NCBI RefSeq assembly: GCF_030691135.1
Contig: NZ_JAUYFA010000037.1
Location: 62,001 to 126,000 of the forward strand
Source: Phreatobacter sp.
GTDB taxonomy: Bacteria; Pseudomonadota; Alphaproteobacteria; Rhizobiales; Phreatobacteraceae
Direction: 5' to 3'
Length of the DNA: 64,000 nucleotides
The notes under the pieces were generated by a model, which was not told where the DNA came from, did not search any database, and saw only the letters and a program-made list of their open reading frames with translations. Both the position numbers and the translations under genes were made by a program. Shown here piece by piece: positions 7,415-23,462 of the stretch (its first letter is position 1; every line of letters starts with the position of its first letter).

Positions 7415-7536
7415 AGACACCCCGAAGTGATCTCCGGGCCGGGCGGCCCGCCTTGCTGCAGTGCGGCAGAGCCCCCAAGTCGCTCAGACCCCTTTCCCGC
7501 GGATGCCAGAGCCGCCCCTTTCAGCAGGAGATGACC

Positions 7537-8634
7537 ATGAGCCAGGATTCCGGTCCGTTGTTCCAGCCCTTCACCCTCGGCGACCTGACGCTTCCCAACC
7601 GCATCGTCATGGCGCCGCTGACCCGCAACCGCGCCACGCCGGGAACCGACGCGGCCAATGCGATGACCGCGACCTATTACCGGCAGCGCGCCACGGCCGG
7701 CCTGATCATCTCCGAGGGCACCCAGGTCTCGCCGCAGGGCCAGGGCTATCTGCAGACCCCCGGCCTCTACAGCGATGCGCAGGTCGCCGGCTGGAAGACC
7801 GTCACCGACGCAGTCCACGCCGCCGGCGGGCGCATGTTCGCCCAGATCTGGCATGTCGGCCGCGTCTCGCACGAATCGCTGCTCAACGGCGGCGCGCCCG
7901 TGGCGCCCTCCGCCGTTGCGGCCAAGTCGAAGACCTATATCGCGGGCGGGTTCGCCGACGTCTCGGCCCCGCGCGCCCTGGCGCTCGCGGAGATCCCCGG
8001 CGTCGTCGCCGAGTATGCCGATGCCGCCGTCAATGCGCGCAAGGCCGGGTTCGACGGCGTCGAGATCCACGGCGCCAACGGCTATCTCATCGACCAGTTC
8101 CTGAAGGACGGCGCCAACCAGCGCCAGGACGCCTATGGCGGTTCGGCGGAGAACCGGGTGCGGTTCGGCCTCGAAGTGGTCGACGCCATCCTCAAGGTCT
8201 TCCCGAAGACCCGCCTCGGCATCCGGCTGTCGCCGGTCAGCCCGGCCAACGACACCGTCACCTCCGATCCGGCCGAGGTCTTCGGCCTCTTCGTGGCGGA
8301 GCTCTCGAAGCGCGGCATCGCCTTCATTCATGTCGTGGAGGGTGCGACGGGCGGTCCGCGCGACAACGTGCCCTTCGACTGGGTGGCGCTGCGCAAGTCC
8401 TTCTCGGGCGCCTATATCGCCAACAACGGCTATACGCGCGACATGGCCATCGACGCCGTCCGTGACGGGCGGGCCGACCTCGTCGCCTTCGGAAAGGCCT
8501 TCATCGCCAATCCGGACCTGGTGGAGCGTCTGCGCCTCGACGCACCGCTGAACGAACTCGACAAGACGACGCTCTATGGCGGCGACGCGAAGGGCTATAC
8601 CGACTATCCCGCGCTGGCCGAAGCTGCGGAGTGA
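7537..8634 (+). CDS. Old Yellow Enzyme family alkene reductase
   Basis: A 365-residue FMN-dependent ene-reductase of the OYE/NemA family, which reduces activated C=C bonds of enals, enones, maleimides or nitro compounds using NAD(P)H. The FMN-site strand reads NRIVMAPLTRNRA. The substrate-binding HxxN pair and proton-donor tyrosine are H178, N181 and Y183 in VEIHGANGYLIDQF, followed by DAYGGSAENR. The start is ATG 7537, six bases after AGGAG at 7526-7530; a GTG at 7411 is in frame but gives an atypical extension. It follows the IclR gene on the same strand. The physiological substrate cannot be told. Confidence 0.95.
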   Translation: MSQDSGPLFQPFTLGDLTLPNRIVMAPLTRNRATPGTDAANAMTATYYRQRATAGLIISEGTQVSPQGQGYLQTPGLYSDAQVAGWKTVTDAVHAAGGRMFAQIWHVGRVSHESLLNGGAPVAPSAVAAKSKTYIAGGFADVSAPRALALAEIPGVVAEYADAAVNARKAGFDGVEIHGANGYLIDQFLKDGANQRQDAYGGSAENRVRFGLEVVDAILKVFPKTRLGIRLSPVSPANDTVTSDPAEVFGLFVAELSKRGIAFIHVVEGATGGPRDNVPFDWVALRKSFSGAYIANNGYTRDMAIDAVRDGRADLVAFGKAFIANPDLVERLRLDAPLNELDKTTLYGGDAKGYTDYPALAEAAE

Positions 8635-8838: not shown

Positions 8839-8874
8839 TTGGGGCAGCCGTTAGGGCAGCGATTAGGACAGGTT
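8839..8874. repeat. Three imperfect 12-bp tandem units
   Basis: TTGGGGCAGCCG, TTAGGGCAGCGA and TTAGGACAGGTT follow one another without gaps in non-coding DNA beside the IS3 remnant. The units are degenerate and no function is apparent. Confidence 0.5.
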
Positions 8875-8978
8875 GGAGGAGGCGTAAGAGTCGAGCGCTT
8901 CATAAATTGAGTGACCGCTTTGTTGAGAAAGTGAGCGAGCCGAAGCACCACGGCGATGAAGGTGGCCTCTATCCATCT

Positions 8979-9419
8979 GTCCGGCTTGCGGGCATGCAGG
9001 GCCTGCTCCAGCGCGTCGAGCACGACACCCGCCGTCTGCGTACGGCTGACCCGCCAGCCAACGTTGCGCCTGGGCGAAATACGCGCTCGCCTTGCGCAGG
9101 ATCTCGTTCGCCTGGCGCAGCTCGTGGACCTCGCGCTCCAGCGCCTTCAGCTTCTCCGTGACATCAGAGGGAACGCCAGCGCGCTTCCCGCCATCAACCT
9201 CCGCCCGCTTGACCCATTCCAGCAGTGTGTGGGTCGAGCAGCCGATCTTTGCGGCAATCGAGGCGCAGGCAACCCAGCGCGAGGAATGCTCGCCCTCCTG
9301 GTCCAGCACCAGCCGAACCGCTCGCTCGCGCACCTCAGGTGAAAACTTGTTCGTCGTCTTGCTCATGATGGCTCATCCTTCTCAGGAGTTGAGCCCTCCG
9401 GCAAACCCAGTGCGGTTCA
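8979..9419 (-). mobile_element. IS3-family element, internally deleted remnant
   Basis: orfA reads from ATG 9366 to about 9067. It encodes an HTH protein ([20 protein letters not shown]) with the leucine-zipper-like [20 protein letters not shown] and the family ending ASAYFAQA. Immediately after, in another frame (9062-8979), comes a piece from the middle of the orfB integrase, [12 protein letters not shown] plus VLDALEQAL. The first part of orfB has therefore been deleted, and everything after the fragment (the rest of the DDE domain) is missing. A TGAACCGCACTGGG end, typical of an IS3 left terminus, starts at 9419. No matching right terminal repeat was found near 8780-8980, so the element cannot move on its own. 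Confidence 0.85.
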
Positions 9420-9441: not shown

Positions 9442-10332
9442 TCAGCGACCGGCTGTGGGCCCTGTAGCGCAATGGCGCGCGACAGCAGCGTGGGTGGCGA
9501 ACCAGCAGCCGCCGCGGGCCTTCATGTGCCGGATCAGTTCCTCGACGATGAAGATGCGGGATCGGTAGCCGATGACGTGGGGATGCATGGTGAGGAGAAA
9601 CAGGCCGCCTTCCTCATGCGCGCGGTCGAATTCACGGATGAAGATGTCGAGAACAGCGGGCGGCGGCGTATGCGGCCGCAGGCCTTTGAACCGGTCCATG
9701 TTGAAATAGGGGGCGTCGTCCCGGATCCACTCGACAGGCAGTTCGACGATGCCCGTGGGCACGCCGTCCTCGACCAGTTCATAGGGATCGTCGTCGGCCA
9801 TCAGCGAGGAATCGTAGATCAGGCCGAGTTCGCGCTGGATCTTCAGGGTCGAGGGTGAAAAGTCCCAGGACGGCGTCCGCATCCCGACGGCACGGATGCC
9901 GGTGATTTTCTCGAGCTGGTCCGCGGCGCGAAAATGCAGGTCGCGCTCGACCGCCTCCGGCAGGACGGAGTTGAGCTCGTGGATCCATCCGTGGAGACCG
10001 ATCTCGTGACCCTCGGCAATGACCCGGCGCTGTTCGTCGGGATGAAGCAGGGCCGCGACCGCCGGCACGAAGAAGGTGGCGGGCACCGATTCGCGACCGA
10101 GCACGGAGAGGATGCGGGGGATGCCCCGGCGCGCACCATACTGCCCCCAGGACATCCGCCCGATGGAGTTGCCGCCGTCACGCAGTTCGTTGGTCTCGTG
10201 GTCGGAATCGAAAGAGAGTGCGACCGCGCAGCGGGCGCCGCCGGGCCAGCTGGCAGGCTTCAGCGACCGTCCGGCGCGCACATGTTCGACGCGACCGCGC
10301 CATTCCGCCTCGTCCCATTGCCACGGTTCCAT
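9442..10332 (-). CDS. NodB/PuuE-like polysaccharide deacetylase family protein (paralog 1)
   Basis: A 296-residue NodB-fold carbohydrate esterase/amidohydrolase homolog. The metal-site motifs are altered from classical chitin deacetylases: SFDSDHE with D42 and D44, and the histidine pair H114/H118 in LHGWIHE. This form resembles the PuuE allantoinase-like branch, whose members hydrolyse small amides rather than polysaccharides. No signal peptide is seen, which supports a cytoplasmic small-molecule role. The stop lies a few bases from the ABC-transporter ATPase start region, and the gene is the last of the minus-strand transporter operon. A second, related protein is encoded at 53993-54820. 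The substrate is unknown. Confidence 0.88.
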   Translation of the reverse strand: MEPWQWDEAEWRGRVEHVRAGRSLKPASWPGGARCAVALSFDSDHETNELRDGGNSIGRMSWGQYGARRGIPRILSVLGRESVPATFFVPAVAALLHPDEQRRVIAEGHEIGLHGWIHELNSVLPEAVERDLHFRAADQLEKITGIRAVGMRTPSWDFSPSTLKIQRELGLIYDSSLMADDDPYELVEDGVPTGIVELPVEWIRDDAPYFNMDRFKGLRPHTPPPAVLDIFIREFDRAHEEGGLFLLTMHPHVIGYRSRIFIVEELIRHMKARGGCWFATHAAVARHCATGPTAGR

Positions 10333-10335
10333 GGG

Positions 10336-11349
10336 TCACGTCCTGTCGTCGATCAGCGGGTGGTGGCAGGCCGCGCGCCGTCCATCGGCGAGGTCGCGGA
10401 GATCGGGGGCCTCGCTGCGGCATCGCGCGTCAGCGGCAGGGCATCGCAGGTGAAAGTGGCAGCCGGGCGGCGGCGCGAGCGGCGAGGGCAGTTCGCCGCT
10501 GATCGGCCGGAAGCTGACGAGGTCGTCGCCCGTCGTCACGAGCTTGGGCACGCTGTCGAGCAGGGCGCGGGTATAGTGATGGGCGGGGCGGGTGTAGATG
10601 TCCTCCGTCCGGCCGAGCTCGACGATGCGCCCGAGATACATGATCGCCACCCGGTCGCAGATGTGCCGGATCACCCCGAGGTCATGGCTGATGAACAGCA
10701 TGGTGAGGTTCAGTTCGCGCCGCAGCTTCAGGAACAGGTTGATGATCTGGGCCTGGATGGACACGTCGAGCGAGGCGACGGGCTCGTCGCAGACGAGAAT
10801 GTCGGGCTGCATGGCGAGGGCCCGCGCGATGGCGATCCGCTGGCGCTGGCCGCCGGAGAACTGATGCGGAAAGCGGTCCGCGGCATCGGCCGGCAGGCCG
10901 ACCGCCGAGAGCCAGCGGGCGACCTCGGCGCGGGCCTCGGCGCGTCGGATCAGGCCGTGGGCGATGGGCCCCTCGGCGATCGTCGCTCCGATGCGAAAGC
11001 GCGGGTCGAGCGAGCCGAACGGATCCTGGAAGATCATCTGCACGCGCGTCGTCGTCTTCACCCGGCGGCGTGAGCCCCCCATCACCGGCTCGCCGTGGAT
11101 GAAGGCCTCGCCGTCGCTCGGCGGGTGGATTCCCGCAATGACGCGGCCGAGGGTCGACTTGCCACAGCCGGATTCGCCGACAAGGCCGAGGACCTCGCCG
11201 GGGGCGATGTCGAGGCTGACACGGTCGACCGCGTGGACCGTGCGGTTCTCGACATAGGCCCCGAAAAGCCCGGCGATCCGCTCGCCGATGGAGGGGGTCG
11301 GCGCGAAGCGGCGGGAGACGTTGCGGACCTCGACAATCGCGGGGCTCAT
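10336..11349 (-). CDS. Dipeptide/oligopeptide-type ABC transporter ATPase (OppF/DppF-like)
   Basis: A 337-residue ABC ATPase energising the adjacent permease pair. The Walker A motif GESGCGKST, signature FSGGQRQRIAIARALA and Walker B ILVCDEPVASLD are intact. The C-terminal extension with a cysteine-bearing GCHFHLRCPAADARC motif is typical of OppD/OppF proteins and of their [4Fe-4S]-like cluster. The start is ATG 11349, overlapping the upstream ATPase stop by the ATGA arrangement. The cognate binding protein is on the opposite strand at 15557. Substrates of this family include peptides, nickel and various small amides; the creatininase-like neighbour suggests a cyclic amide or N-compound. Confidence 0.94.
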   Translation of the reverse strand: MSPAIVEVRNVSRRFAPTPSIGERIAGLFGAYVENRTVHAVDRVSLDIAPGEVLGLVGESGCGKSTLGRVIAGIHPPSDGEAFIHGEPVMGGSRRRVKTTTRVQMIFQDPFGSLDPRFRIGATIAEGPIAHGLIRRAEARAEVARWLSAVGLPADAADRFPHQFSGGQRQRIAIARALAMQPDILVCDEPVASLDVSIQAQIINLFLKLRRELNLTMLFISHDLGVIRHICDRVAIMYLGRIVELGRTEDIYTRPAHHYTRALLDSVPKLVTTGDDLVSFRPISGELPSPLAPPPGCHFHLRCPAADARCRSEAPDLRDLADGRRAACHHPLIDDRT

Positions 11350-12320
11350 GAGGTCGGCTCCGCATGCGGATGATGGCATCGCCAGCGGCGATCGCCCGCG
11401 ACCGTCGGCGCCGGCTCGGCGTCGCAGGCCCCGTCTGCCCGCAGGCAACGCGGCGCGAAAGCACAGCCCGGCGGCAGCGCCAGCATCGAGGGGGGCGCGC
11501 CGGGGATCTGCATCAGGTCCTTGCCGGCAACGGCCTTGGCCGGGAGCGAGTCGAGCAATCCCCGCGCATAGGGGTGACCCGGCGCCGACAGCACCTGGCG
11601 GATCGGTCCTTCCTCGATCACCCGGCCCGCATACATGACGATGATGCGGGAAGCGAGGGATGAGACCGTCGCAAGGTCATGGCTGATCCAGATCAGCGCC
11701 GTCCCGGTATCGCGTGCCAGAGCCCGCATTTCCGTGAGAATCTGTGCCTGGACGGAGACGTCGAGAGCGGTCGTCGGCTCGTCGCAGATGATCAGCTTCG
11801 GCCGGTTGAGCAGGGCCGTCGCAATGGCGACGCGCTGGCGCATGCCGCCGGAGAACTGATGGGGATAGGCGTCGAGCCGGCGCGCGGCATCGGGGATGCC
11901 GACCAGGGTCAGAACCTCCGCCACGCGGGCCCGTGCCGCCGCGGCGCTGACAGTCTCGTGGGCGTGGATGGCGAGGGCCATCTGGTCGCCGATGCGCAGG
12001 ACGGGGTTGAGCGTCGCCGCCGGGTCCTGGAAGACCATGGCGATCTCCCGGCCGCGCATGGCGCGCAGGTCGCGGGCGGGCAGGCCGACCAGCTCGCATC
12101 CCGCCAGCCTGACCGAGCCGCCGGTGATCCGCCCGGGCGGGTCGATCAGGCCGAGGATCGAAAAACCCGTGACGCTCTTGCCCGAGCCGGATTCGCCGAC
12201 GAGGCCGAGGATTTCGCCGGCCTCGACATGGAAGCTGACCTCGCGCACCGCCCGCACGATGCCGGCCCGCGTCGGAAACTCGGTGGTCAGGCCCTCGACG
12301 ACGAGTAGCGGCCCGCTCAT
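11346..12320 (-). CDS. Dipeptide/oligopeptide-type ABC transporter ATPase (OppD/DppD-like)
   Basis: A 324-residue second ATPase of the heterodimeric motor. The Walker A motif GESGSGKSV, signature FSGGMRQRVAIATALL and Walker B LIICDEPTTALD are all present, with the OppD-type C-terminal cysteine motif GCAFAPRCLRADGAC. ATGA overlaps join it to the permease gene before it and the ATPase gene after it, implying translational coupling of the whole operon. Together with the two permeases it forms one importer in the inner membrane. Confidence 0.94.
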   Translation of the reverse strand: MSGPLLVVEGLTTEFPTRAGIVRAVREVSFHVEAGEILGLVGESGSGKSVTGFSILGLIDPPGRITGGSVRLAGCELVGLPARDLRAMRGREIAMVFQDPAATLNPVLRIGDQMALAIHAHETVSAAAARARVAEVLTLVGIPDAARRLDAYPHQFSGGMRQRVAIATALLNRPKLIICDEPTTALDVSVQAQILTEMRALARDTGTALIWISHDLATVSSLASRIIVMYAGRVIEEGPIRQVLSAPGHPYARGLLDSLPAKAVAGKDLMQIPGAPPSMLALPPGCAFAPRCLRADGACDAEPAPTVAGDRRWRCHHPHAEPTS

Positions 12321-13195
12321 CGCCGGAGCCGCGGGTTGAGCTGGTCACGCACCTGGTCGCCGACGAGATTGATGGAGGCGATGAGCACGATCAGGGCGAT
12401 GCCGGGATAGATCGAGATCCAGTAGCGTCCCGACAAAAGGTACTGGAAGCCATTGGCTATCAGCATGCCGAGCGACGGCTCGCTGACGGGCAGGCCGAGA
12501 CCGAGGAAGGAGAGCGTGGCTTCCAGGGCGATCGAATTGGCCACCTGAACCGTGGCGACGACGATCAGCGGCGGCATGCAGTTCGGCAGGATATGCCGGA
12601 GCACGACGACGTGCGGCTTGAGCGGCGTGGACAGGGCCGCCTCGACATAGTCCTTCGAGCGCTCGGTCGCGGCGGCGCCATGGGCGGTCCGCGCGAAATA
12701 GGCATATTGGGCCGTCACCAGCGCGGCCACGAGCTGCCACTTGCCCTGGCCGAGCACGGCGGCGAGGACCAGGGCGAGAAGGATGGCGGGAAAGGACAGT
12801 TGCAGGTCGATGAAGCGCATGATGAGCGCCTCGATGCGGCCGCCGAGATAGGCGGCGAAAGTGCCTAGCGTGACGCCCAGCGAGAAGGCGATGATCCCGG
12901 CCGACAGACCGATCTCGATGGAGACGCGCAGCCCGTAGAGGATCGCCGAAAGGACATCACGCCCCTGGCCGTCGGTGCCGAGCCAGTGGGTGATGCCCGT
13001 GCGGGGGCTGACGAAGCCGGGCGGCCGACGGGCGTCGGCCAGGCGCAGGCCGGCCATGTCATAGGGGTTCTGCGGGGTGATCCACGGCGCCACCAGCGAC
13101 AGCACGACGATGGTGGCGACGATGGCGAGCGCGACCACCGCAACGCGGTTGACGCGAAACTCGCTCCAGAATTGTGCGACGGGGCCCGCGATCAT
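12317..13195 (-). CDS. ABC transporter permease (OppC/DppC-like)
   Basis: A 292-residue inner-membrane permease. An N-terminal membrane segment (VALAIVATIVVLSLVAPW) is followed by the periplasmic stretch with HWLGTDGQGRDVLS, a motif characteristic of DppC/OppC. Then come several membrane helices and the EAA coupling loop (YVEAALSTPLKPHVVVLRHI). The start is ATG 13195, overlapping the upstream permease stop as ATGA; longer frames to 13639 are read-through of the neighbour. It pairs with the DppB-like permease. Confidence 0.93.
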   Translation of the reverse strand: MIAGPVAQFWSEFRVNRVAVVALAIVATIVVLSLVAPWITPQNPYDMAGLRLADARRPPGFVSPRTGITHWLGTDGQGRDVLSAILYGLRVSIEIGLSAGIIAFSLGVTLGTFAAYLGGRIEALIMRFIDLQLSFPAILLALVLAAVLGQGKWQLVAALVTAQYAYFARTAHGAAATERSKDYVEAALSTPLKPHVVVLRHILPNCMPPLIVVATVQVANSIALEATLSFLGLGLPVSEPSLGMLIANGFQYLLSGRYWISIYPGIALIVLIASINLVGDQVRDQLNPRLRR

Positions 13196-14166
13196 GACGC
13201 GGCTCGCAGCCGGAGGCGCGGGTCGAGCGCCACATAGACGATGTCGATGGTGAGGTTGACGAGGATGAAGAAGAAGGCGACCAGCATGAGGTAGGCGACC
13301 ATGACCGGCCGGTCGAGCGTGTTGATGGAATCGATGATGAGTTTTCCGACCCCCGGCCAGGAGAAGATCGTCTCCGTGACCACGGCGAAGGCGAGCGTGG
13401 AGCCGAATTCCAGCCCGAAGACCGTGACGATTGGAATGGCGATCAGGCGCAGGACATGGCGGCGCAGGATCGTCGCCTCGCTCTCCCCGGCAGCGCGCGC
13501 GAATTTGACGGTATCGGTCAGCATGATCTCGCGGGTGCCGGCGCGGGCGAGCCGCACCATCATGGCGAACTTGAACAGGGCCAGATTGAGCGCCGGAAGG
13601 AACAAATGCTGCCAGCCATTGGCGGTCAAGACGCTCCACGAGATGCCGAAGAGTTCCCGCGTCTCGCCGCGGCTGCCGGCGGGCAGGATGCCGAACTGCA
13701 CCGCGAAAATGAAGATCAGGACGAGGCCGATCCAGAAGGTCGGCACCGAGAAGCCGAGGATGGAGATGCCCATGATGGCGCGGGCAGCCAGGCTGTCAGG
13801 CTTGTAGCCGGCATACATGCCGAGCGGCACGCCGACGAGCGTCGCACCGACGACGGCCACGAGGGTCAACTCCAGCGTCGCCGGGAGCCGCGACAGGATC
13901 AGCGGCAGGACCGGCGACCCGAAGACGAAGGACCTGCCGAAGTCGCCCTGGACGAGCCGGCCGACGAAGTCGAGATATTGTTTCCACAGCGGCTGGTCGA
14001 GACCGTAGGTGCGGATCGCCTCCTCGCGGATCTGCTGGGTGGCATCGGGTGAGATCAGGACGTCAATCGGGTTGCCCACCGCATAGACGCCGCAGAAGAC
14101 CAGCACCGAGATGATCATCATCACGACGACGGCCTGCAGCAGGCGCTGGATGATGAAGCCGAGCAT
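13192..14166 (-). CDS. ABC transporter permease (OppB/DppB-like)
   Basis: A 324-residue permease with the standard DppB layout. An N-terminal helix (FIIQRLLQAVVVMMIISVLVF) leads to a large periplasmic segment containing YGLDQPLWKQYL and GDFGRSF, then five membrane helices and a coupling loop with RAAGESEATILRRHVLR. The family ending VVTETIFSWPGVGKL is intact. It is the first transporter gene after the creatininase-like gene, from whose stop it is separated by three bases. Confidence 0.93.
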   Translation of the reverse strand: MLGFIIQRLLQAVVVMMIISVLVFCGVYAVGNPIDVLISPDATQQIREEAIRTYGLDQPLWKQYLDFVGRLVQGDFGRSFVFGSPVLPLILSRLPATLELTLVAVVGATLVGVPLGMYAGYKPDSLAARAIMGISILGFSVPTFWIGLVLIFIFAVQFGILPAGSRGETRELFGISWSVLTANGWQHLFLPALNLALFKFAMMVRLARAGTREIMLTDTVKFARAAGESEATILRRHVLRLIAIPIVTVFGLEFGSTLAFAVVTETIFSWPGVGKLIIDSINTLDRPVMVAYLMLVAFFFILVNLTIDIVYVALDPRLRLRAAS

Positions 14167-14169
14167 GGA

Positions 14170-14871
14170 TCAGGCCCAGCCTTCGGCGATGACGGCGCGC
14201 GTTTCGTCCACTGCAATGTCCCAGATGGCCAGCATCTCCGCGTCGGACCGCTGATAGAGGCCGCCGTAATTGCCGTCGCCGAGCATGGCCTTCTTGGCGC
14301 CGGGATCGAGCTGCTGGAACCGCCCGAGGTCGAGCATCGGCTTCTGATGGGACGGCGCCGCGACGTCCGGAAGCCGCGTCCAGGGGAAATTCTCCATCCA
14401 GGAGGCGTGGGAAGCGACGGGATCGATCGCTTGCACTTTGGCGAAGGTCTTCGGCGCGTTCCACCAATTGTGCCATTTCACCTGGCAGCCGCGGTTGCGG
14501 TCGAGCCATTCGAGGATGGCCCCGTGGGCGGGCGAGTTGCCGCCGTGCCCGTTGACGAGGGTGATGTGGCGGAAGCCGGACCGCACCATTCCGTCGAGCA
14601 CGTCGACGAGAATGGCGCAGAGCGTCGACAGGCGCAGCGTCACGGTCCCCGGATAGTCGACGAAGCTCGGCGTGAAGCCGTAGTTCACCACCGGAAAGAC
14701 CGGGATGGCGAGCGGTGCGGCAGCCTCCAGCGCGACGCGTTCCGCCAGGATCGAATCGACGCAGAGGCTCAGGCCGGCGTGCTGCTCGGTCGACCCGACC
14801 GGCAGCACCGCGCGCAGGTCGCGTTGCGCCTGCGCCTCCACCTGCATCCAGTTCGTCTCGGCGATCCGCAT
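14170..14871 (-). CDS. Creatininase family protein (amidohydrolase-like)
   Basis: A 233-residue member of the creatinine amidohydrolase/MftE family. Metal-site residues are visible as E29 and H31 in GSTEQHA, D39 in CVDS, and the NGHGGN block at residues 107-112. Relatives open cyclic amides such as creatinine or formamides in riboflavin-like metabolites. The usual EQHGPHLPL is changed to EQHAGLSL, so substrate choice may differ. The start is ATG 14871 (MRIAETNWMQ); the frame extends to 14901 but that ATG overlaps the marR end. It is co-directional with marR and the transporter operon, suggesting hydrolysis of the imported compound. Confidence 0.88.
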   Translation of the reverse strand: MRIAETNWMQVEAQAQRDLRAVLPVGSTEQHAGLSLCVDSILAERVALEAAAPLAIPVFPVVNYGFTPSFVDYPGTVTLRLSTLCAILVDVLDGMVRSGFRHITLVNGHGGNSPAHGAILEWLDRNRGCQVKWHNWWNAPKTFAKVQAIDPVASHASWMENFPWTRLPDVAAPSHQKPMLDLGRFQQLDPGAKKAMLGDGNYGGLYQRSDAEMLAIWDIAVDETRAVIAEGWA

Positions 14872-14878
14872 GGCGTCC

Positions 14879-15412
14879 TCACTCCCCCTTGTCGCCCGCA
14901 TGGAACATGCCGAGCACGACCTTCGCCATCAGCATGGACAGTTGCTCGCGCTCGATCAGCGAGAGCGGCTCGAGCATCTCCTCCTCGAGCGCGACGAAAC
15001 GCGGCATGGCCTCGGCCAGGAGGTCCTGGCCGGCCGGCGTGAGATGCAGCGGCTGGGCCCGGCGATCGGTGGCGTCGGCCCCGCGCCGGACCACGCCGCG
15101 CTTGGCGAGAACGCCGACGGCGCGGCTCAGCGTGTTTTTCGGGAAGGCGGTGGAGGAGGCGATCTCCGAGGCGGTGACGCCGTCCGTGATGCCGAGGCTG
15201 TAAAGGATGACGAATTCCGGCCGCGACAGGCCGAAGCGCTCCTCGACCCAGCCATAGAGCGGCTGGTTGTAGCGAAGAGCCAGGTAGTTGAACCGCGCCG
15301 CGAAACCGCAGGGATTCTTCCACAGGCGCGCATGGGTGAAGGCGTCGAGACGCCGCTGGGGGCTCGCGACTTCCGGCTCGGCAACGCGCGGGGAGGCAAT
15401 AGATGGTTCCAA
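14879..15412 (-). CDS. MarR family transcriptional regulator
   Basis: A 177-residue winged-helix regulator. The DNA-binding domain spans about residues 75-130, with TASEIASSTAFPKNTLSRAVG as the recognition region and GADATDRRAQPLHLTPAG as the wing, a clear MarR signature. It is the first gene of the minus-strand unit with the creatininase-like protein and transporter, and is divergent from the binding-protein gene at 15557. A good minus-strand promoter and two copies of ATGGTTCCA lie in the shared upstream region, one at its own start codon, pointing to autoregulation and control of the divergent gene. The ligand is unknown. Confidence 0.9.
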   Translation of the reverse strand: MEPSIASPRVAEPEVASPQRRLDAFTHARLWKNPCGFAARFNYLALRYNQPLYGWVEERFGLSRPEFVILYSLGITDGVTASEIASSTAFPKNTLSRAVGVLAKRGVVRRGADATDRRAQPLHLTPAGQDLLAEAMPRFVALEEEMLEPLSLIEREQLSMLMAKVVLGMFHAGDKGE

Positions 15413-15463
15413 AGAGAACTTCCTTGATCCGAAGCCTGATTATATCGGCCGGAAATGGTTCCA
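15403..15463. repeat. Direct repeat ATGGTTCCA in the marR divergent promoter
   Basis: ATGGTTCCA occurs at 15403-15411 (overlapping the marR start) and 15455-15463 (overlapping the -35 element of marR), 52 bases apart. Each sits in a weak inverted repeat (GTTC-N6-GAAC; GGAA-N4-TTCC). These are plausible MarR operators. Confidence 0.4.
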
Positions 15464-15466
15464 CAA
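15439..15466 (-). promoter_or_regulatory. Promoter of marR operon
   Basis: On the minus strand, TTGTGG (15466-15461), 16 bases, then a perfect TATAAT (15444-15439), 27 bases before the marR ATG. This is one of the few consensus-like promoters in the window. Confidence 0.55.
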
Positions 15467-15470
15467 GGGA

Positions 15471-15500
15471 TTGACTAGGAGGTGTGCACGCCATTTGAAT
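15471..15500 (+). promoter_or_regulatory. Promoter of the binding-protein gene
   Basis: TTGACT (15471-15476), 18 bases, then TTGAAT (15495-15500), 57 bases before the ATG at 15557. The -35 sits directly beside the second ATGGTTCCA repeat, so a regulator bound there could repress both directions. Confidence 0.4.
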
Positions 15501-15556
15501 GGGCGGTGACGGGTGGTGCCCGCCACCGGATCCGGTATCCCGACCAGGAGGTTCCC

Positions 15557-17152
15557 ATGCGTATTCTCAGACGTTCCCTGATGCTCGGCCTGCTGGGCGT
15601 CGCCACCATGCTGCCCGGCACGGCGCCGTCCGCCCATGCCCAGATCCTCACCATCGGTGTGCGCGGCGGCCCCGATTCGATCGATCCGCATTTCACGGCG
15701 ACCGGCACCCATGCGGAAGCCCTGAAACATGTCTTCGACACGCTGGTCTGGTCCGGCCGTGGGCTGGAACTGGAACCGCGCCTGGCCGAGAGCTGGCGCG
15801 TCGTCGACGCCACCACCTGGGAATTCAAGCTGCGCCGCGGCGTCAAGTTTCACGACGGGTCGGATTTCACCGCCGAAGACGTGAAGTTCTCCATCGAGCG
15901 GATTCCGGTGGTCTCCGGCCCCAATCCGACGACCATCTATGTCCGGCGCGTCAAGGAGACGCGCATCATCGATTCCCACACGATCCACGTCGTCACCGAC
16001 GGGCCGGCGCCGAACCTGCCGAACGACTTCATCCGGCTCTTCATCGTCTCGTCCAAGGCGGCGGCAGGTCTGACGCGCGAGACCGCGAACGAGGCCTTCA
16101 ATTCCGGCCGGGCGGCCATCGGTACAGGTCCTTATCGCTACGTCTCCTGGCAGCCGCGCGGCGAGCTCGTGCTCGCCCGGTTCGACGGCTACTGGGGCCC
16201 CAAGGAGCCGTGGGAGCGCCATGTCCGCCGCGAGATTCCGAATGATGCGGCGCGCGTCGCGCAGTTGCGTGCCGGCCAGCTCGATCTCATCACCCGTGTC
16301 CCGGCCTCCGACGTTGCCACCCTGCGCCGTGACAACCGCCTGACGGTTCAGACCGTCGACACGGTCTATGTCTTCAACGTCGAGCTGGACATGCGTGAGC
16401 GGGCAAACGGCATCACTGCCAAGGACGGCTCCGCACTGGCGGCCAATCCCTTCCGCGACCTGAGGGTTCGCCAGGCCATCGATCTGGCGATCGACCGCAC
16501 GGCGCTCGCCGAGGTTGCCATGGAAGGGCTGGGCAAGCCGGTCAACCAGATGGTGACGCCGACCATTTTCGGGTTCAACGCCGCCCTTCCGGCCTTGCGC
16601 CATGATCCGGCCGAGGCCAGGCGCCTGCTGACGGCGGCCGGCTTTCCCAACGGCTTCCGCATCCCCTTCGCCTTCACCAACGACCGCCTTCCGGGTGACC
16701 GCGATGTCGGTACGGCGATCGCCCAGATGCTCGCGGCCATCGGCATCGAAGCCCAGCCGAACGGCATGCCGGCGGCGGTCTTCTTCCCGGCGCGGACCCG
16801 TGGCGAACATTCCATGTCGATGTCCGGCTGGGGCACGCTGACCGGCGAGGCGCATTACACCCTGTCCTCCCTCGTCCATTCGAACGATCGCGAACGCCGC
16901 ATGGGTGCCTTCAACGTCCTCGGCTATGCCAATCCCCAGATGGACAAGCTGCTGCAGGACGCGGCCATCGAGATGGACGAGGCGAAGCGGCGCAAGCTCC
17001 TGGAAGATGCCAATGCGCTGGTTTCTGCCGACAAGCAGCGGTTGCCGATCGTCGCCGTCTCCTCGGCCTGGGCCATGAACAAGGCCAGGCTGACGCTGTC
17101 GCCGCGGGTCGACGAGGACACGCTCGCCATGGACATCCGCCCGGCGCGATGA
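15557..17152 (+). CDS. Periplasmic solute-binding protein of a dipeptide-type ABC transporter
   Basis: A 531-residue SBP family 5 protein (DppA/OppA/NikA type) that captures ligand in the periplasm. A cleavable signal peptide ends at AHA (residue 28). The family hallmarks RLAESWRVVDATTWEFKLRRG-like and KFHDGSDFTAEDVKFSIER-like blocks and a C-terminal domain follow. The start ATG 15557 has AGGAGG at 15546-15551. It is divergent from the marR-transporter operon and is the only binding protein near those permeases, so it should serve them. It is followed at 56 bases by a PanE-like reductase and an SDR that may process the imported compound. Confidence 0.94.
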   Translation: MRILRRSLMLGLLGVATMLPGTAPSAHAQILTIGVRGGPDSIDPHFTATGTHAEALKHVFDTLVWSGRGLELEPRLAESWRVVDATTWEFKLRRGVKFHDGSDFTAEDVKFSIERIPVVSGPNPTTIYVRRVKETRIIDSHTIHVVTDGPAPNLPNDFIRLFIVSSKAAAGLTRETANEAFNSGRAAIGTGPYRYVSWQPRGELVLARFDGYWGPKEPWERHVRREIPNDAARVAQLRAGQLDLITRVPASDVATLRRDNRLTVQTVDTVYVFNVELDMRERANGITAKDGSALAANPFRDLRVRQAIDLAIDRTALAEVAMEGLGKPVNQMVTPTIFGFNAALPALRHDPAEARRLLTAAGFPNGFRIPFAFTNDRLPGDRDVGTAIAQMLAAIGIEAQPNGMPAAVFFPARTRGEHSMSMSGWGTLTGEAHYTLSSLVHSNDRERRMGAFNVLGYANPQMDKLLQDAAIEMDEAKRRKLLEDANALVSADKQRLPIVAVSSAWAMNKARLTLSPRVDEDTLAMDIRPAR

Positions 17153-17208
17153 CGCCATGCGGCGGCGGCCCCCGGGTCGCCGCCGTCCCTCGCATGAAGG
17201 ACAGGCCG

Positions 17209-18237
17209 ATGGCCGAGAGACCCATCCTGATCTGGGGTGCCGGCGCGATCGGCGGGACGCTCGGCGCCTATTGGGCGCGTGCCGGTCTGCCGGTGGTGCT
17301 GGTCGATCAGGTCGCCGAGCATGTCGAGGCCTGCCGCACCCGCGGCCTGCATGTTTCCGGCCCCATCGAGGACTTCACTCAGGTGGTGCCGGCGCTGACG
17401 CCGGACGAGGTCACAGGCACCTATGACATCGTCGTTCTGGCCGTGAAGGCGCAGGCGACGGAGACGGCCCTGCACCAGCTTTCGCCTCATCTCGCCGCCG
17501 ACGGCTACGTGCTCTCCGCCCAGAACGGTCTCAATGAACTCGCCATCGCCGCTGCGGTGGGCGCCGATCGCACCATGGGCTGCTTCGTCAATTTCGGCGC
17601 CGACTGGCATGGTCCCGGCGAGATCCTCTTCGGCAACCGCGCCGCGGTGGTTGTCGGCGAGATCGACGGCACGGTGCGCGAGCGGACGCGGGCGATGCAT
17701 GCCAAGCTCGCCCTCTTCGAGCCGGGTGCGGTGCTGACCGATAATGTCTGGGGCTATCTGTGGGGCAAGCTCGCCTATGGCGCGATGCTCTTCGCCACCG
17801 CCCTGACCAACGATTCGATGACGGAGAACTTCGCCGATCCGCGCCGGACCACCGTCTTCGAACGCCTCGGCCGCGAGGTCATGGCGGTTGCGAAAGCGCG
17901 TGGCGTGGTGCCCATCGGCTTCAACGGCTTCGATCCCGCGGCTTTCGCTCCGGGAGCCTCGGCCGAGGGGGCAAGGGCCTCCATCGCGGCGCTTGCCGAA
18001 TTCAACCGGCATACCGCCAAGACCCATTCCGGCATCTGGCGGGACCTGGCAGTGCGCAAGCGCCGCACCGAAGTGGATCCGCAGATCGGGGTGATCGCCA
18101 GGCTCGGCGCGGAAGCTGGCGTCGAGACGCCGGCCATTGCCAAGCTGGTGGAACTCATCCACGCCATCGAGGACGGTGTCCGCCCTATGGACATGGCGAC
18201 CTTCCAGGACCTGATCGACACATGCACATCGACCTGA
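17209..18237 (+). CDS. Ketopantoate reductase (PanE/ApbA) family dehydrogenase
   Basis: A 342-residue NAD(P)-dependent 2-oxoacid reductase homolog. The Rossmann motif GAGAIG is at residues 10-15, followed by the ApbA N-domain (VVLAVKAQATE, LSAQNGLNE) and the helical C-domain with KLAYGAMLFATALTNDSM. The start is ATG 17209 with AAGG eight bases before; ATG 17194 lacks a ribosome site. Bona fide PanE makes pantoate, but proteins of this size in catabolic clusters usually reduce or oxidise other 2-oxo/2-hydroxy acids. Position between a binding protein and an SDR suggests a catabolic role here. Confidence 0.87.
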   Translation: MAERPILIWGAGAIGGTLGAYWARAGLPVVLVDQVAEHVEACRTRGLHVSGPIEDFTQVVPALTPDEVTGTYDIVVLAVKAQATETALHQLSPHLAADGYVLSAQNGLNELAIAAAVGADRTMGCFVNFGADWHGPGEILFGNRAAVVVGEIDGTVRERTRAMHAKLALFEPGAVLTDNVWGYLWGKLAYGAMLFATALTNDSMTENFADPRRTTVFERLGREVMAVAKARGVVPIGFNGFDPAAFAPGASAEGARASIAALAEFNRHTAKTHSGIWRDLAVRKRRTEVDPQIGVIARLGAEAGVETPAIAKLVELIHAIEDGVRPMDMATFQDLIDTCTST

Positions 18238-18977
18238 CCGGCCGCGTCGCCCTCGTTACCGGGGCCGCACAGGGCATCGGCAAGGCCATCGCCCTGGCAC
18301 TGCGCGCGTCGGGAGCCACCGTCGTGGTCGCCGATCTCGACGGCGATGGGCTCGGCAGCTTCGCCGCGGCCGAGGGCTTTGCCGCGCGCACGATCGACGT
18401 ATCCGACCGTGCCGCGGCCCATATGGCAGTGACGGACGTGGTTGCCGCCCAGGGGCGCATCGATATCCTCGTCAATGCCGCTGGCGGCGTGCGCGGACAG
18501 GTCGGCCGCCCGATCGCCGCGGTGTCAGAGGACGAGTGGCGGGTGCTGTTCGAGGCCAATGTCGACGGTGCCTTCTGGCTGGCGCAGGCCGTCAGCGGGC
18601 CGATGGGGAAGGCTGGCCATGGTCGCATCGTCAACATCGCATCGGGTGCGGGCCTGCGTCCAAGCCTGACCGGCATCCAGGCCTATACGGCGGCGAAACA
18701 TGCGCTGGTCGGCCTGACCAAGCAGCTCAGCCAGGACCTCGGGCCATCCGGCATCACCTGCAATGCGGTCGCGCCGGGCTTCGTGCTCTCCAATCCGGCG
18801 ACGGAACGGCAATGGAACGCCTATGGCCCCGACGGCCAGAAACGGCTGGTGGAATCCATCCATGTCCGTCGCCTCGGCACGGCCGCGGATATTGCCCATG
18901 CCGTGCTGTTCCTGGTCAGCGATCAGGCCGGCTGGATCAGCGGCCAGATCCTGTCAGTGGACGGTGGTCGCTCCTGA
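18222..18977 (+). CDS. SDR family oxidoreductase
   Basis: A 251-residue classical short-chain dehydrogenase. The cofactor motif is TGAAQGIG, the structural NAAG follows, and the catalytic residues are S141, Y155 and K159 (YTAAK). The C-terminus ILSVDGG is typical of classical SDRs. The ATG at 18222 lies 16 bases inside the end of the PanE-like gene, showing translational coupling; the longer frame from 17760 is shadow. D at the end of the second strand (VVVADLD) suggests preference for NAD(H). The substrate is probably a hydroxy/keto intermediate of the compound taken up by the adjacent ABC system. Confidence 0.92.
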   Translation: MHIDLTGRVALVTGAAQGIGKAIALALRASGATVVVADLDGDGLGSFAAAEGFAARTIDVSDRAAAHMAVTDVVAAQGRIDILVNAAGGVRGQVGRPIAAVSEDEWRVLFEANVDGAFWLAQAVSGPMGKAGHGRIVNIASGAGLRPSLTGIQAYTAAKHALVGLTKQLSQDLGPSGITCNAVAPGFVLSNPATERQWNAYGPDGQKRLVESIHVRRLGTAADIAHAVLFLVSDQAGWISGQILSVDGGRS

Positions 18978-19975: not shown

Positions 19976-20923
19976 TCAGACGGCGAGCGATCCGGCGACC
20001 CGTGCGGCCTGGATCGCCGCCAGGACGGCCTGATGCTCAAGCGGGCTCGGAGCAGGTTGCGGCGGCCTAACGACGGCCGTGGGAATCCGGCCGCCGTCAG
20101 CAAGCGCCAGCTTCAGGCGGGCGGTAGCCCGGCCACCTGGCGCATCGCGGTAGATGGCGACGGCGAGGGGATAGATGCTGTCGTGCAGCTTTCGCGCCGT
20201 CGTCCAGTCGCCGCTGGCGGTGGCCGCGAAGAAGGCGACCAGCAGGTCGGGCACAAGGGCTGCGAGCGACACCTGCGCGCCGGCAGAGCCGATGATCGCG
20301 CTGGTCAGGAGATGCTCGTCGCCCGAGCCCATGACGACGAAATCCGGCCGCAGGCCTTCCAGAAGCCGCTTGTTCGCCTCATAGGCGGCGACCTCCCAGC
20401 TCCCCTCCTTGACCGCGATGATCCGCTCGTCGGCGGCGAGTCTGGTGAGGGTTTCAGCCGAATAGGCCATCCGGCCGGCCCCGACCGGGGCGGCATAGAG
20501 CATCAGTGGCAGGCTGGAGGCCGCCGCGACATGGTCATGGTGGATGTCGACCACCCGCTCGTCATGGCCAAGCGCCCAGGAATTTGGCGGGAAGACCAGC
20601 AGGATGTCGGCGCCGGCCTGCTCGGCGTCGGCGGCATCCCGGGCCGCCTGCAGGCTCGATTCCGCATTGATGCCCGAGCAGATGACACAATCGGCGGGTG
20701 CCACCTGCCGCGCGATCGCGATCACGCGGCGCTTTTCGGCGGAATCGAGGACGAAGTTTTCGCCGGCATGGCCGTTGATCAGGAGGCCGCGAATGCCGGG
20801 GCGGTTGGCGACCGCCGCGATATGGGTGGCTAGCGCATCCTCGTCGACGGAGAAGTCGGCACGCATTGGCACGATGGTCGCGGCATGGATGCCGGTGAGG
20901 CGGGATGCGAGCGGGTGGGTCAT
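19976..20923 (-). CDS. DapA-family (dihydrodipicolinate synthase-like) lyase/deaminase
   Basis: A 315-residue TIM-barrel aldolase of the DapA/NanA superfamily. The Schiff-base lysine is K172 in AVKEGSWE and the catalytic tyrosine Y143 in MLYAAP. Housekeeping DapA is unlikely, because the gene is the last of an operon with a three-part FAD/[2Fe-2S] dehydrogenase and an amino-acid ABC transporter. In hydroxyproline catabolism a DapA-family enzyme deaminates 1-pyrroline-4-hydroxy-2-carboxylate, the product of D-hydroxyproline dehydrogenase, and the same logic fits here. The ATG overlaps the preceding stop as ATGA. Other decarboxylating or aldol activities remain possible. Confidence 0.88.
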   Translation of the reverse strand: MTHPLASRLTGIHAATIVPMRADFSVDEDALATHIAAVANRPGIRGLLINGHAGENFVLDSAEKRRVIAIARQVAPADCVICSGINAESSLQAARDAADAEQAGADILLVFPPNSWALGHDERVVDIHHDHVAAASSLPLMLYAAPVGAGRMAYSAETLTRLAADERIIAVKEGSWEVAAYEANKRLLEGLRPDFVVMGSGDEHLLTSAIIGSAGAQVSLAALVPDLLVAFFAATASGDWTTARKLHDSIYPLAVAIYRDAPGGRATARLKLALADGGRIPTAVVRPPQPAPSPLEHQAVLAAIQAARVAGSLAV

Positions 20924-22038
20924 GGCGGAGCGGCCTTCATCAGGCGGTCGATGGGAAAGAGCGGCAGGTCGGGCTCGCGGCCGAGGATGACATCGGCGAG
21001 CGAGCGGGCAATGGAGGGACCGCTGGTATAGCCCGAATGGATGGAGCCGCAGACATAGGCATCGGGAATGCCGGGAATGGGTCCGGCGGCGGGCAGGGCG
21101 TCGGCGGTCTCCGCCTCGAGGCCCGCCCAGGCGCGGGCTAGCCTTGCGCCGGCCAGTTCCGGGATGGCGTGGCAGGCGAGCCGGATATTGCCGACGAGCC
21201 GTTCGGGGACGAGTTCGACGCCACCGCGCTCGCGGTCGCCGATACCCTGCCAGCCCCCGCCGATGACGACCGTGCCATGGGGATATTGCTTCAGTGACAG
21301 GAGCCCCGACGCGATTCCGACCACGGTGCGCATGACCGGCCGGATGCGTTCCGTCACCGACAGCTGGTTGACCAGCACCTTGATCGGCAGGTGAACGCCG
21401 AGCCAGGCCATCATCGGCTCGATCCAGACTCCACCGGCGAGTACGACGCGGCGGAAGGAAACGGGGCCTTGCGCCGTCCGGGCGACGAAGCCGTTGTCCG
21501 TGCGGTCGAGTCCGCTGACCCCGCGGTTCTCCATCACCGCCACGCCGGCATCCACCAGCGCTGCCCGGAAGGCCTGACCGGTCAGATAGGCATTGGCATA
21601 GCCGTCGACCACGCAATGGCCGGCCATCAGGGTCCTGTCGGAGATACCGGGCTCGACCCGCAGCGCCTCGTCGCGGCTGATGATGGTGATCGGCGCGCCA
21701 GCGGCCCGGCGCTTCCCCGCCCGCTCCTCCAGAAGCGCCGCTTCGCGTTCGGTGAAGGCGAGCGACAGGCCGTCGCAGACCACAACGCCGACATCATGGC
21801 CAAGCCAGTCGCGGGCGGAGGCCCACATGGCATGGGCCCGCATCGCGTGGGGGATGAGCGCGACACGGGTCATCTGCAGGGTCAGCGTGCCCGCATTGAC
21901 TCCGGAGGCCTCGCGGCAGAGCGGGCCGCGGTCGAGGAGCGCGGTAGACAGGCCGCCGCGCTGGGCCAGCAGCGCCAGCGTGGAACCGACCACGCCGCCG
22001 CCGATGACGCCGAGATCGTAGATGGGCGCTTGGCTCAT
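20920..22038 (-). CDS. FAD-dependent dehydrogenase, DAO-type subunit (LhpB-like beta subunit)
   Basis: A 372-residue DadA/glycine-oxidase-type flavoprotein. The dinucleotide motif GVIGGGVVGSTLA is at the N-terminus. A DAO-family substrate domain follows, with the C-terminal FAD motif GLEAETADALPAAGPIPG and GSIHSGYTSGPSIA. Size and the next two genes (475 and 96 residues) match the beta, alpha and gamma subunits of the D-hydroxyproline dehydrogenase described from Pseudomonas, and also opine/octopine oxidases. This subunit would carry the amine-oxidising site. It is ATGA-coupled on both sides. Confidence 0.87.
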   Translation of the reverse strand: MSQAPIYDLGVIGGGVVGSTLALLAQRGGLSTALLDRGPLCREASGVNAGTLTLQMTRVALIPHAMRAHAMWASARDWLGHDVGVVVCDGLSLAFTEREAALLEERAGKRRAAGAPITIISRDEALRVEPGISDRTLMAGHCVVDGYANAYLTGQAFRAALVDAGVAVMENRGVSGLDRTDNGFVARTAQGPVSFRRVVLAGGVWIEPMMAWLGVHLPIKVLVNQLSVTERIRPVMRTVVGIASGLLSLKQYPHGTVVIGGGWQGIGDRERGGVELVPERLVGNIRLACHAIPELAGARLARAWAGLEAETADALPAAGPIPGIPDAYVCGSIHSGYTSGPSIARSLADVILGREPDLPLFPIDRLMKAAPP

Positions 22039-23462
22039 AGCGGCGCCGGTGGCGGGATCGGGATGTCGGCATAGTCGAAACTGCCGATCATCGTGTCGAA
22101 GGGAACGGGTCTGAGCGGCACGCGCTGGGTCCAGTAGCCAACTGTCTCGCGCGTCACGCCGCGCCGCTGGGCGACAAGCTCGGCGGCGACATCGCCACAC
22201 ATCCGGCCCTGGCAGGGCCCCATGCCACAGCGGGTGAAATGCTTCATCTGGTTGATGTCGCCGGCGCCCGCATCGACGGCGGCATCGATCTCGGCGCGGC
22301 TGACGTCCTCGCAGCGGCAGACCACGGTGGCGGGGGTGATGGCGGCGACCTGCGCGGGTTTGAGTGCCATGGCGCCGGCGACGGTATCGGCGAAGGGGCG
22401 ATAATCCGCCAAAGCCTGGAGCGTGGGTTCTGCGAGCGCGGTGAAGGCCGTCGCATCGAGCCGGCCGGCGTCATGGGCCGCGGCGAGACCAGCCAATCGG
22501 CCCGCGACCGCCGACGGACGCGCGCCGCGGATGCCGGTGCCGTCGCCGCAGGCATAGAGGTTCTCGATCGTGGTGCGGCCATAGGGGTCGAGTTCCGGAA
22601 TGAAGCCGCCGCGCAATCTGTCATACAGATGGGCGGCACGCAGGATCTTCGGCACTTCACCGCCCGGAACGAGCCCGTGGCCGACGGCCAGCGCATCGCA
22701 TGCGAACCGCCGCTCCGGCCCTGCGATCGGTGCGCCGTCGGCATCGACCGGCCCGACGATGACGGCTTCGACTTCGGACCGGCCTGCCGCGCAGCGCACG
22801 CCATGGCCGGCGAGAAAGGGCACGCGGGCGCCGAGGATCGACCAGGTCCAGCCCAGCCCCTCCTTCAGCAGATCCAAGCGGCGGGCGAGGCCGGGCAGCC
22901 GTCTCGCCCAGGCGAGCCGGCCGTCCATGTCGACGATGGCCGCGACCTCACCACCCTTGGCGATGATGCCGGCGGCGACCGCGAATAGCAGCGGCCCTGC
23001 GCCCGCAACCACCACCCTGCGGCCGGGCAGGACCGCCTGCGCCTTCAAAAGGACGGTGGCGCCGGCAAGACCGATGACCCCCGGCAGGGTCCAGCCGGGA
23101 AAGGGCACGACGCGCTCATGGGCCCCGGTGGCAGCGACCAGGCGCGGGGCCTCGTAGGCTTCCGCGCCGTCCGGGCCCACGGCGTCGAGCCGGAAGGCAC
23201 CACCGACCGACCAGACCCGGCGACCAAGCCTGCGGTCGACGCCGGATGCGGCAAGCCTTGCCCTCAAGCCATCGCCCGCCTCGGCATCAGCGCCTTTTCG
23301 CGGCATGGTGAGGCCGGAAAGCGGCGCGCGCCAGCCCTGGCCGCCGGCATCGGCCTGTTCGTCGATCAGCACCACATCGAGGCCGGCCTCTGCTGCGGCC
23401 AGCGCCGCCTCGGTCCCGGCGGGGCCTGCTCCCAGCACCAGACAATCGGCGGGGCGGATCAC
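22035..23462 (-). CDS. FAD/NAD-binding dehydrogenase, alpha subunit (LhpE / opine oxidase A-like)
   Basis: A 475-residue flavoprotein of the HcnB/OoxA/SoxA-like group. Motif GAGPAGTEAAL starts the first Rossmann fold and VVAGAGPLLFAVA the second. The C-terminal bacterioferritin-associated-ferredoxin-like domain has cysteines in VVCRCEDVS and FTRCGMGPCQGRMC, expected to hold a [2Fe-2S] cluster. The start is GTG 23462, overlapping the [2Fe-2S] gene stop (GTGA). It should form a complex with the 372-residue and 96-residue neighbours and pass electrons out of the amine-oxidising subunit. Confidence 0.88.
   Translation of the reverse strand: MIRPADCLVLGAGPAGTEAALAAAEAGLDVVLIDEQADAGGQGWRAPLSGLTMPRKGADAEAGDGLRARLAASGVDRRLGRRVWSVGGAFRLDAVGPDGAEAYEAPRLVAATGAHERVVPFPGWTLPGVIGLAGATVLLKAQAVLPGRRVVVAGAGPLLFAVAAGIIAKGGEVAAIVDMDGRLAWARRLPGLARRLDLLKEGLGWTWSILGARVPFLAGHGVRCAAGRSEVEAVIVGPVDADGAPIAGPERRFACDALAVGHGLVPGGEVPKILRAAHLYDRLRGGFIPELDPYGRTTIENLYACGDGTGIRGARPSAVAGRLAGLAAAHDAGRLDATAFTALAEPTLQALADYRPFADTVAGAMALKPAQVAAITPATVVCRCEDVSRAEIDAAVDAGAGDINQMKHFTRCGMGPCQGRMCGDVAAELVAQRRGVTRETVGYWTQRVPLRPVPFDTMIGSFDYADIPIPPPAPL

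Follow-up and report, generated by a model that had tools for sequence, protein, structure and literature searches.

The creatininase family (PF02633) includes the creatininase of Pseudomonas putida, MftE, IolN and BrbF, the last a riboflavin formamidase encoded beside a CobW gene, as set out in the excerpted text of PMC9478397. In fungal nicotinate breakdown, as far as the excerpted text of PMC9304392 goes, a hydroxylated cyclic amide is acted on in turn by HxnW, a short-chain dehydrogenase/reductase (SDR), by the NodB-like imidase HxnM directly after it, and by the amide hydrolase HxnN. In Escherichia coli, the iaaA-gsiABCD stretch unites a beta-aspartyl peptidase with a family-5 binding protein and a Gsi/Dpp-type ABC transporter. 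The locus compared here with these systems lies in a 64,000-nucleotide stretch of Phreatobacter sp. DNA, hereafter the window (positions 62,001–126,000 of NZ_JAUYFA010000037.1, contig C111 of a 4.2-Mb genome). It joins a creatininase-family hydrolase (CRN) to two dehydrogenases, an importer, a MarR-family regulator and a second hydrolase. The nearest named relative found, a Phreatobacter metagenome-assembled genome (MAG; L013), has the same cluster, with proteins 95–100% identical.

The ten genes of the locus, whose families were named by Pfam matches above gathering scores, form two back-to-back operons. The minus-strand operon reads MarR, CRN, DppB, DppC, DppD, DppF and a NodB/PuuE-like hydrolase (PDA), and the plus-strand operon reads binding protein, PanE-like dehydrogenase and SDR. 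This gene content, read earlier in a first-pass annotation made from the sequence alone, was confirmed in full by the Pfam matches. That annotation also stated that it knew the combination from no named pathway, and searches covering openly licensed PMC papers found no paper describing it.

It is proposed, with a probability of about 0.6, that the locus represents one instance of a widespread module for the catabolism of small peptide-like amides. The gene set is not peculiar to the window genome: CRN, the PanE-like enzyme and the SDR form a fixed trio, and the importer, regulator and second hydrolase are exchangeable. This exchange around the trio points to dipeptide-like amides, and in general the module likely takes up a peptide-like amide and degrades it. 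If the proposal is correct, one hidden pathway unites three families annotated as creatininase, 2-dehydropantoate 2-reductase and polysaccharide deacetylase. It would be present on plasmids as well as in bacteria of soil, water and plant habitats, and its substrate would be a compound common enough to maintain the module in several phyla.

A fixed trio with exchangeable partners

The trio comprises CRN (14170–14871, minus strand; 126 bits against PF02633, cut-off 31.3), the PanE/ApbA-like dehydrogenase (17149–18237, plus strand; ApbA and ApbA_C) and the SDR (18234–18977, plus strand; adh_short_C2, 179 bits). Its conservation was followed in 86 CRN loci, namely the window itself, the 80 that ranked best among 568 confirmed loci, and five of 33 plasmid records with 80% CRN coverage; loci L001–L012 were too short and were excluded. 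Gene presence was scored by tblastn (E 1e-15, with at least 45% identity additionally for the SDR), and domain names were tested on representatives. All three members occur together in 65 of the 86 loci, from Alpha- and Betaproteobacteria to Deinococcus. Counted singly, the PanE-like gene and the SDR are each present in 67 loci, a binding protein in 74 and a DppB-type permease in 72. Regulators of the GntR and MarR types occur in 35 and 30 loci, respectively, and the hydrolytic partners are beta-aspartyl peptidase (35), PDA (30), M32 carboxypeptidase (29), M20 dipeptidase (28) and S58/P1 peptidase (9). These counts are lowered by contigs that end near the cluster in part of the loci.

As the 86 loci were retrieved via CRN, a second sample of 289 genomes of the class, not chosen by neighbourhood, was also searched (CRN at E 1e-80, PanE-like at E 1e-40), and CRN was found in 15 of them. 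In the 14 besides the window's own, all 17 PanE-like matches share a contig with a CRN match and lie no more than 5 kb from it; a PanE-like gene stands beside 17 of the 18 CRN matches, the exception being a partial CRN match. CRN and this PanE-like subfamily are therefore near-obligate neighbours in the class. The redox partners named by the first-pass annotation, PanE-like and SDR alike, proved to be almost always linked to CRN. Three genomes (G218, G314 and G317) each hold two CRN and PanE-like pairs, suggesting modules for different substrates. Single in-frame stops occur in the PanE-like genes of G208 and G127 and in the CRN gene of G017, from decay or assembly error.

Across 59 loci, the pairwise identity values of the CRN, PanE-like, SDR and binding proteins correlate with one another (r 0.61–0.87; largest permuted value 0.16), a run from which L021, with a one-residue CRN, was excluded. 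This bears on the simpler view that the locus is a plain peptide scavenging operon with the PanE-like enzyme and SDR as bystanders. Such an operon would fit the Dpp-type transporter, which in relatives accompanies dipeptidase, M32 carboxypeptidase and beta-aspartyl peptidase genes, at least one gene of the M20, M32, S58 or beta-aspartyl peptidase type being present in 63 of the 86 loci. Nevertheless, it is an unlikely explanation, as PanE-like and CRN are linked 17 times out of 17 in the sampled genomes while transporter, regulator and peptidases vary, and the correlated identities extend over both supposed bystanders.

Among the five annotated plasmid loci, four carry CRN, PanE-like and SDR genes with peptidases, and the fifth is without PanE-like and SDR. 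This fifth locus (L093; Klebsiella pneumoniae NZ_CP069863.1) has a beta-aspartyl peptidase, an ABC set, GntR and CRN, with an IS903B copy after them, and neither PanE-like nor SDR is annotated there. Another locus, L083, is recorded as Mycobacterium sp. KBS0706, a name that looks doubtful: its CRN, PanE-like and SDR proteins are 63, 55 and 58% identical to those of the window, as in alphaproteobacterial loci.

Four observations weigh against a peptide-amide module built on the trio. First, eight loci (seven from Verrucomicrobia/Spartobacteria and one from Anaerolineae) have CRN and none of the other tested genes, and CRN is thus not confined to loci with the trio; loss, different use or incomplete neighbourhoods may explain these loci outside the class. 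Second, the neighbours of CRN and SDR at the Chloroflexi locus L052 suggest a sugar-like substrate there, since they read as a ribose-type ABC transporter and a kinase resembling xylulokinase, an assignment made without family searches. Third, many loci are MAG contigs, some of them cut at contig ends. Fourth, the window binding protein carries Leu at the place of DppA Asp408, and is therefore not an ordinary dipeptide binder. The eight lone CRN homologues (L064, L071, L078, L079, L081, L088, L089 and L047) show 60–62% identity, and in L064, L078, L079 and L088 the CRN gene follows one read, without a family search, as BtuF-like.

CRN and the second hydrolase

The predicted CRN model (pLDDT 93.3) matched 3no4_C with Z 27.0 and an rmsd of 2.1 over 230 aligned residues, and creatininase with Z 23.5–23.9; structural-search rows below the creatininase family (Z ≤7.0) were treated as common folds. 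The metal ligands of creatininase, which we take to be Glu34, His36, Asp45 and His120 together with Glu122, align at four of these five positions with CRN Glu29, His31, Asp39 and His109. These four residues are invariant across the 27 aligned sequences, the window included, all of which are at least 53% identical to the window CRN. At the Glu122 site, however, creatininase has NGHYEN and CRN has NGHGGN, with Gly111 invariant in 27 of 27. Across the alignment 58 columns are invariant, including 10 of the 12 positions of a HASWMENFPWTR-like stretch.

CRN thus resembles creatininase in its fold and in its Glu-x-His, Asp and NGH motifs, but differs from it in the Gly at the Glu122 site, in its own HASWMENFPWTR-like stretch and in its gene partners. 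It scored 70.6 bits against the NCBIfam creatininase model TIGR04448 (cut-off 235), and its scores also lie far below the cut-offs of the NCBIfam models for MftE and for IolN (46 bits against 245). BrbF was set beside CRN by description only, from the excerpted text of PMC9478397, and its gene partners differ.

The use of creatinine, hydantoin or allantoin is suggested by the Pfam family name, by a gene common to L076 and L090 that in L076 is of the hydantoinase/oxoprolinase A type, and by a protein with a sarcosine-oxidase A3 domain nearby in the window (22035–23570). This explanation is scarcely credible. CRN and PDA fall far below the respective NCBIfam cut-offs for creatininase and for the PuuE allantoinase (TIGR03212; 69 bits for PDA against 424.6), and the annotations of the five plasmid loci name no creatinase, the window genome not having been searched for one. 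Creatinine and allantoin had been listed for growth tests by the first-pass annotation: the former is unlikely as a substrate, given the low creatininase score and the invariant Gly at the Glu122 site, and the use of the latter via a PuuE-type allantoinase is unsupported. Judged by what surrounds CRN in relatives, dipeptide-like amides fit better than creatinine, hydantoins or allantoin.

A keto-sugar or keto-polyol module, in which SDR and PanE-like would oxidise a sugar-like part and CRN would cleave it, as IolN does with an inosose, draws on IolN being a creatininase-like hydrolase, on whose model CRN scores 46 bits, and on the sugar-type neighbours of L052. This possibility is quite improbable, since L052 is one locus only, a Dpp-type permease is found in 72 of the 86 loci, and the IolN score lies far from its cut-off.

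A second amide hydrolase is present in 62 of the 65 loci that hold the trio, as an M20 dipeptidase, a beta-aspartyl peptidase, PDA, a prolidase-like amidohydrolase or an amidase. The M20 enzyme occurs without PDA or beta-aspartyl peptidase in 26 loci, PDA and/or beta-aspartyl peptidase without M20 in 31, both kinds in one and neither in seven; of these seven, three have the prolidase-like amidohydrolase and one the amidase. Related loci among the 65 are not independent, and no probability was therefore attached to these counts. Small amides or peptides are what all the families of these alternatives act on, and this gives the best clue to the substrate. Asparaginase_2 was searched for in the window genome and gave no match, and among the tested kinds of second hydrolase, PDA is consequently the only one here.

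PDA (9442–10332, minus strand; Polysacc_deac_1, 59.3 bits) is the terminal gene of its operon. Its nearest solved structures by phmmer are 3rxz, HpPgdA (3qbu, E 1.3e-26) and PuuE (3cl6, E 3.6e-22), and its metal-type residues Asp42, Asp44, His114 and His118 are invariant in 15 of 15 sequences; its predicted model is poor (mean pLDDT 71.7). The excerpted text of PMC9304392 describes HpPgdA as a relative of cyclic imidases. The amide-hydrolase theme of the first-pass annotation therefore held, with a creatininase-family enzyme, a NodB-like family tied to cyclic imidases and, in relatives, peptidases at the same place.

These relationships open the way to a cyclic imide or hydroxy-lactam pathway. 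Here, the SDR would oxidise a ring carbinol to an imide, PDA as an imidase and CRN would open rings or amides, as in the HxnW and HxnM steps, and the PanE-like enzyme would then oxidise the 2-hydroxy acid. In its favour are the grouping of PDA with HpPgdA and PuuE, the invariant metal-type residues, the position of PDA as sole second hydrolase of the tested kinds, and the fungal case, where, as excerpted in PMC9304392, HxnM follows an SDR and is 64.2% identical to a P. putida cyclic imide hydrolase homologue. The Hxn enzymes, with SDR, NodB-like imidase and amide hydrolase acting in turn, resemble the window set and offer a close chemical parallel to the cyclic-amide idea, although PDA is outside the constant core; unlike the window set, they are without a CRN or PanE-like step in that text. 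As PDA occurs in only 30 of the 86 loci, it is not a constant step, and peptidases replace it elsewhere. The imide pathway is accordingly a tentative alternative, on the unlikely side. The opening of a cyclic amide followed by redox steps, as first proposed, stands in its amide hydrolases and redox partners, but neither the cyclic substrate nor the hydrolysis-first order is established.

Redox partners, importer and proposed route

The PanE-like enzyme scored 143.8 bits against TIGR00745, the ketopantoate reductase subfamily, about 2.4 bits above the cut-off of 141.35. Lys72, Asn98, Lys176 and Glu256 are retained in all 12 sequences compared, window included, so that it shares with PanE the family and the catalytic Lys176, Glu256 and Asn98. 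The ketopantoate-holding residues of E. coli PanE, presumably Asn180, Asn184, Asn194, Asn241 and Ser244, are not kept as a set: Asn180, Asn184 and Ser244 are replaced by Gly, Phe and Gly in 12 of 12. It also differs from PanE by an Asp at the end of beta-2, beside the NADPH-arginine position, which suggests that it uses NAD. In the SDR, Tyr151 and Lys155 are invariant in 59 of 59 sequences.

The breakdown of pantothenate or pantoyl amides, with a hydrolase splitting pantoate from beta-alanine and PanE-like and SDR oxidising the pantoate, was the earliest idea and was abandoned after this residue comparison. A PanE-family enzyme above the TIGR00745 cut-off, an SDR and amide hydrolases do adjoin, yet the replaced pocket residues make such a pathway very unlikely. 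Furthermore, the annotations of the five plasmid loci name no pantothenate gene beyond the PanE-like gene's own label, the other loci not being annotated gene by gene. Further PanE-family genes are present in the genome, one scoring 193.6 bits with two pieces summed, and these could be its pantothenate-synthesis enzymes.

Import by a Dpp-type ABC system, as first annotated, is supported by two permeases, two oligo_HPY ATPases and a family-5 binding protein. The permeases are of the DppB type (13192–14166; BPD_transp_1 and BPD_transp_1_N) and DppC type (12317–13192; BPD_transp_1 and OppC_N), and the ATPases of the DppD type (11346–12320) and DppF type (10336–11361; both ABC_tran and oligo_HPY), all on the minus strand. 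The DppA-like binding protein (15557–17152, plus strand; SBP_bac_5, 284 bits) has 5u4o and the GsiB-type 1uqw as its best sequence relatives with structures. The set resembles E. coli iaaA-gsiABCD in its family-5 binding protein and Gsi/Dpp-type ABC transporter, and in 35 of the 86 CRN loci also in the beta-aspartyl peptidase. That stretch, however, is without CRN, PanE-like and SDR, and the window has PDA in a genome without an Asparaginase_2 match.

In the 14 loci compared, the binding protein that accompanies the trio is of three kinds: the window type with Leu at the Asp408 place, a second type with Asp, and a DppA-like protein (L043). Leu is found there in the window and in seven of seven like homologues, and Asp in six of six of the other types compared. 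In DppA, Asp408 is presumably the residue for the free alpha-amino group of a dipeptide. Judged from this one residue, the window-type protein may prefer ligands that carry no free alpha-amino group.

For the peptide-amide module, it is proposed that the Dpp-type importer would take up the compound, and that CRN, which is constant, and a second hydrolase (PDA here; beta-aspartyl peptidase, M20 dipeptidase or others elsewhere) would cleave amides inside the cell. The constant PanE-like enzyme and SDR would serve as nicotinamide-dependent dehydrogenases in the same breakdown. A combination of hydrolysis and oxidation is likely; we infer the redox direction, the order of steps, the substrate and the repression. 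In the preferred route, the second hydrolase would split off the amino acid of a pseudo-dipeptide, hydroxyl groups on the remaining part would be oxidised by SDR and PanE-like, and CRN would hydrolyse an amide, perhaps cyclic, in that part. MarR, bound to a box covering both −35 elements, would repress both arms until released by the compound or an intermediate.

An evenly balanced possibility goes further, with the trio as the fixed core of an undescribed pseudo-dipeptide pathway, CRN as a new amide hydrolase and the PanE-like enzyme as a new NAD-dependent dehydrogenase; the importer and second hydrolase would be swapped according to the amino-acid partner. Among other conceivable substrates, microcystin, nylon oligomers, cyanophycin and conjugates of plant hormones were weighed and found no support here.

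Control region, operon layout and flanking genes

The control region was compared in 24 loci, the window's and those of 23 relatives whose MarR and binding-protein genes diverge (18 sequences at an 85% identity cut), drawn from the 30 MarR loci after exclusion of non-divergent pairs and of MarR or binding proteins at ≤60% identity. Of 144 intergenic window columns, 20 are invariant in all 24 loci, and 17 of these fall within a 23-bp stretch (15453–15475) that contains the −35 elements of both arms, TTGAC for plus and TTGTGG for minus. Of the other three, one lies close to the plus −10 and two belong to the ribosome-binding site. As the 23-bp stretch spans both −35 elements, shared MarR control of the two arms is well supported, and the single MarR-type divergon of the first-pass annotation gains a conserved footprint over divergent promoters in 24 of 24 loci. 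Repression of both arms by MarR (14879–15412, minus strand, TTG start; MarR_2, 46.6 bits) would be the natural reading.

The 23-bp stretch, box 2, is the proposed main MarR operator. It includes GTTCCANAAGGNATTGAC (15458–15475), which has one perfect copy in the window and one more with three mismatches, and which exceeds the repeat noted earlier. That repeat, ATGGTTCCA, occurs exactly twice in the window (15403–15411 and 15455–15463), and two or more copies arose anywhere in six of 100 shuffles. Its copies lie 52 bp apart in unlike contexts, the first as part of GTTCCA-N4-GAAC over the MarR ribosome-binding and start region. Box 1, GTTCCAAAGAGAAC (15406–15419), lies over the same region and is a possible second MarR operator; a TTCCA-N3/4-GAAC regex matched 18 of 24 loci. 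The spacing between boxes 1 and 2 is 52–53 bp in 12 loci, 83 bp in one and 152–159 bp in five, mostly near whole DNA turns. The box and promoter regexes were composed after the alignment had been viewed and so describe rather than test, the invariant-column count being the better measure.

A strict sigma-70 consensus scan of the control region found no promoter for either arm, and both promoters therefore rest on conservation across these 24 loci. The putative minus promoter (15439–15466) has −35 TTGTGG (15466–15461), a 16-bp spacer and −10 TATAAT (15444–15439); columns 15442–15444 are conserved in 23 of 24 loci, and a promoter-like regex matched 17 of 24. The putative plus promoter (15471–15500) has TTGACT (15471–15476) and a TTNAAT-type −10 at about 15494–15500, from the alignment and a regex matching 23 of 24 loci. 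The TATAAT and two repeats that had been placed in a shared region are all present, but the TATAAT belongs to the minus-strand MarR arm (ATTATA at 15439–15444 on plus).

Neighbouring genes in both arms overlap or almost touch in an operon-like manner, with 4-bp overlaps, for example, of PanE-like with the binding-protein gene before it (17149–17152) and of SDR with PanE-like (18234–18237). For CRN, whose open reading frame opens at 14901, a start at 14871 is more likely, because the ATG there follows the MarR stop and a purine-rich GGGGGAG. The listed dppF frame opens at 11448, and its overlap with dppD suggests a start near 11361. No composition break was found at the locus, where GC is 0.637–0.711 per kilobase.

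On the minus strand at 19976–23807, DapA-like, FAD-oxidase (ThiO-like, below cut-off) and SoxA-like genes stand beside a permease, in what looks like an amino-acid catabolic cluster. Hydroxyproline peptides, a substrate idea prompted by these genes, were dropped because genes like two of them adjoin CRN in one other locus only (L022). An IclR-type regulator and then an old yellow enzyme-type flavin oxidoreductase occupy 6599–8634, neither being listed beside CRN in relatives in the 12-gene tblastn. Just beyond the end of the minus operon, at 8863–9366 on the minus strand, lies an HTH_Tnp_1 transposase orfA-like gene or remnant.

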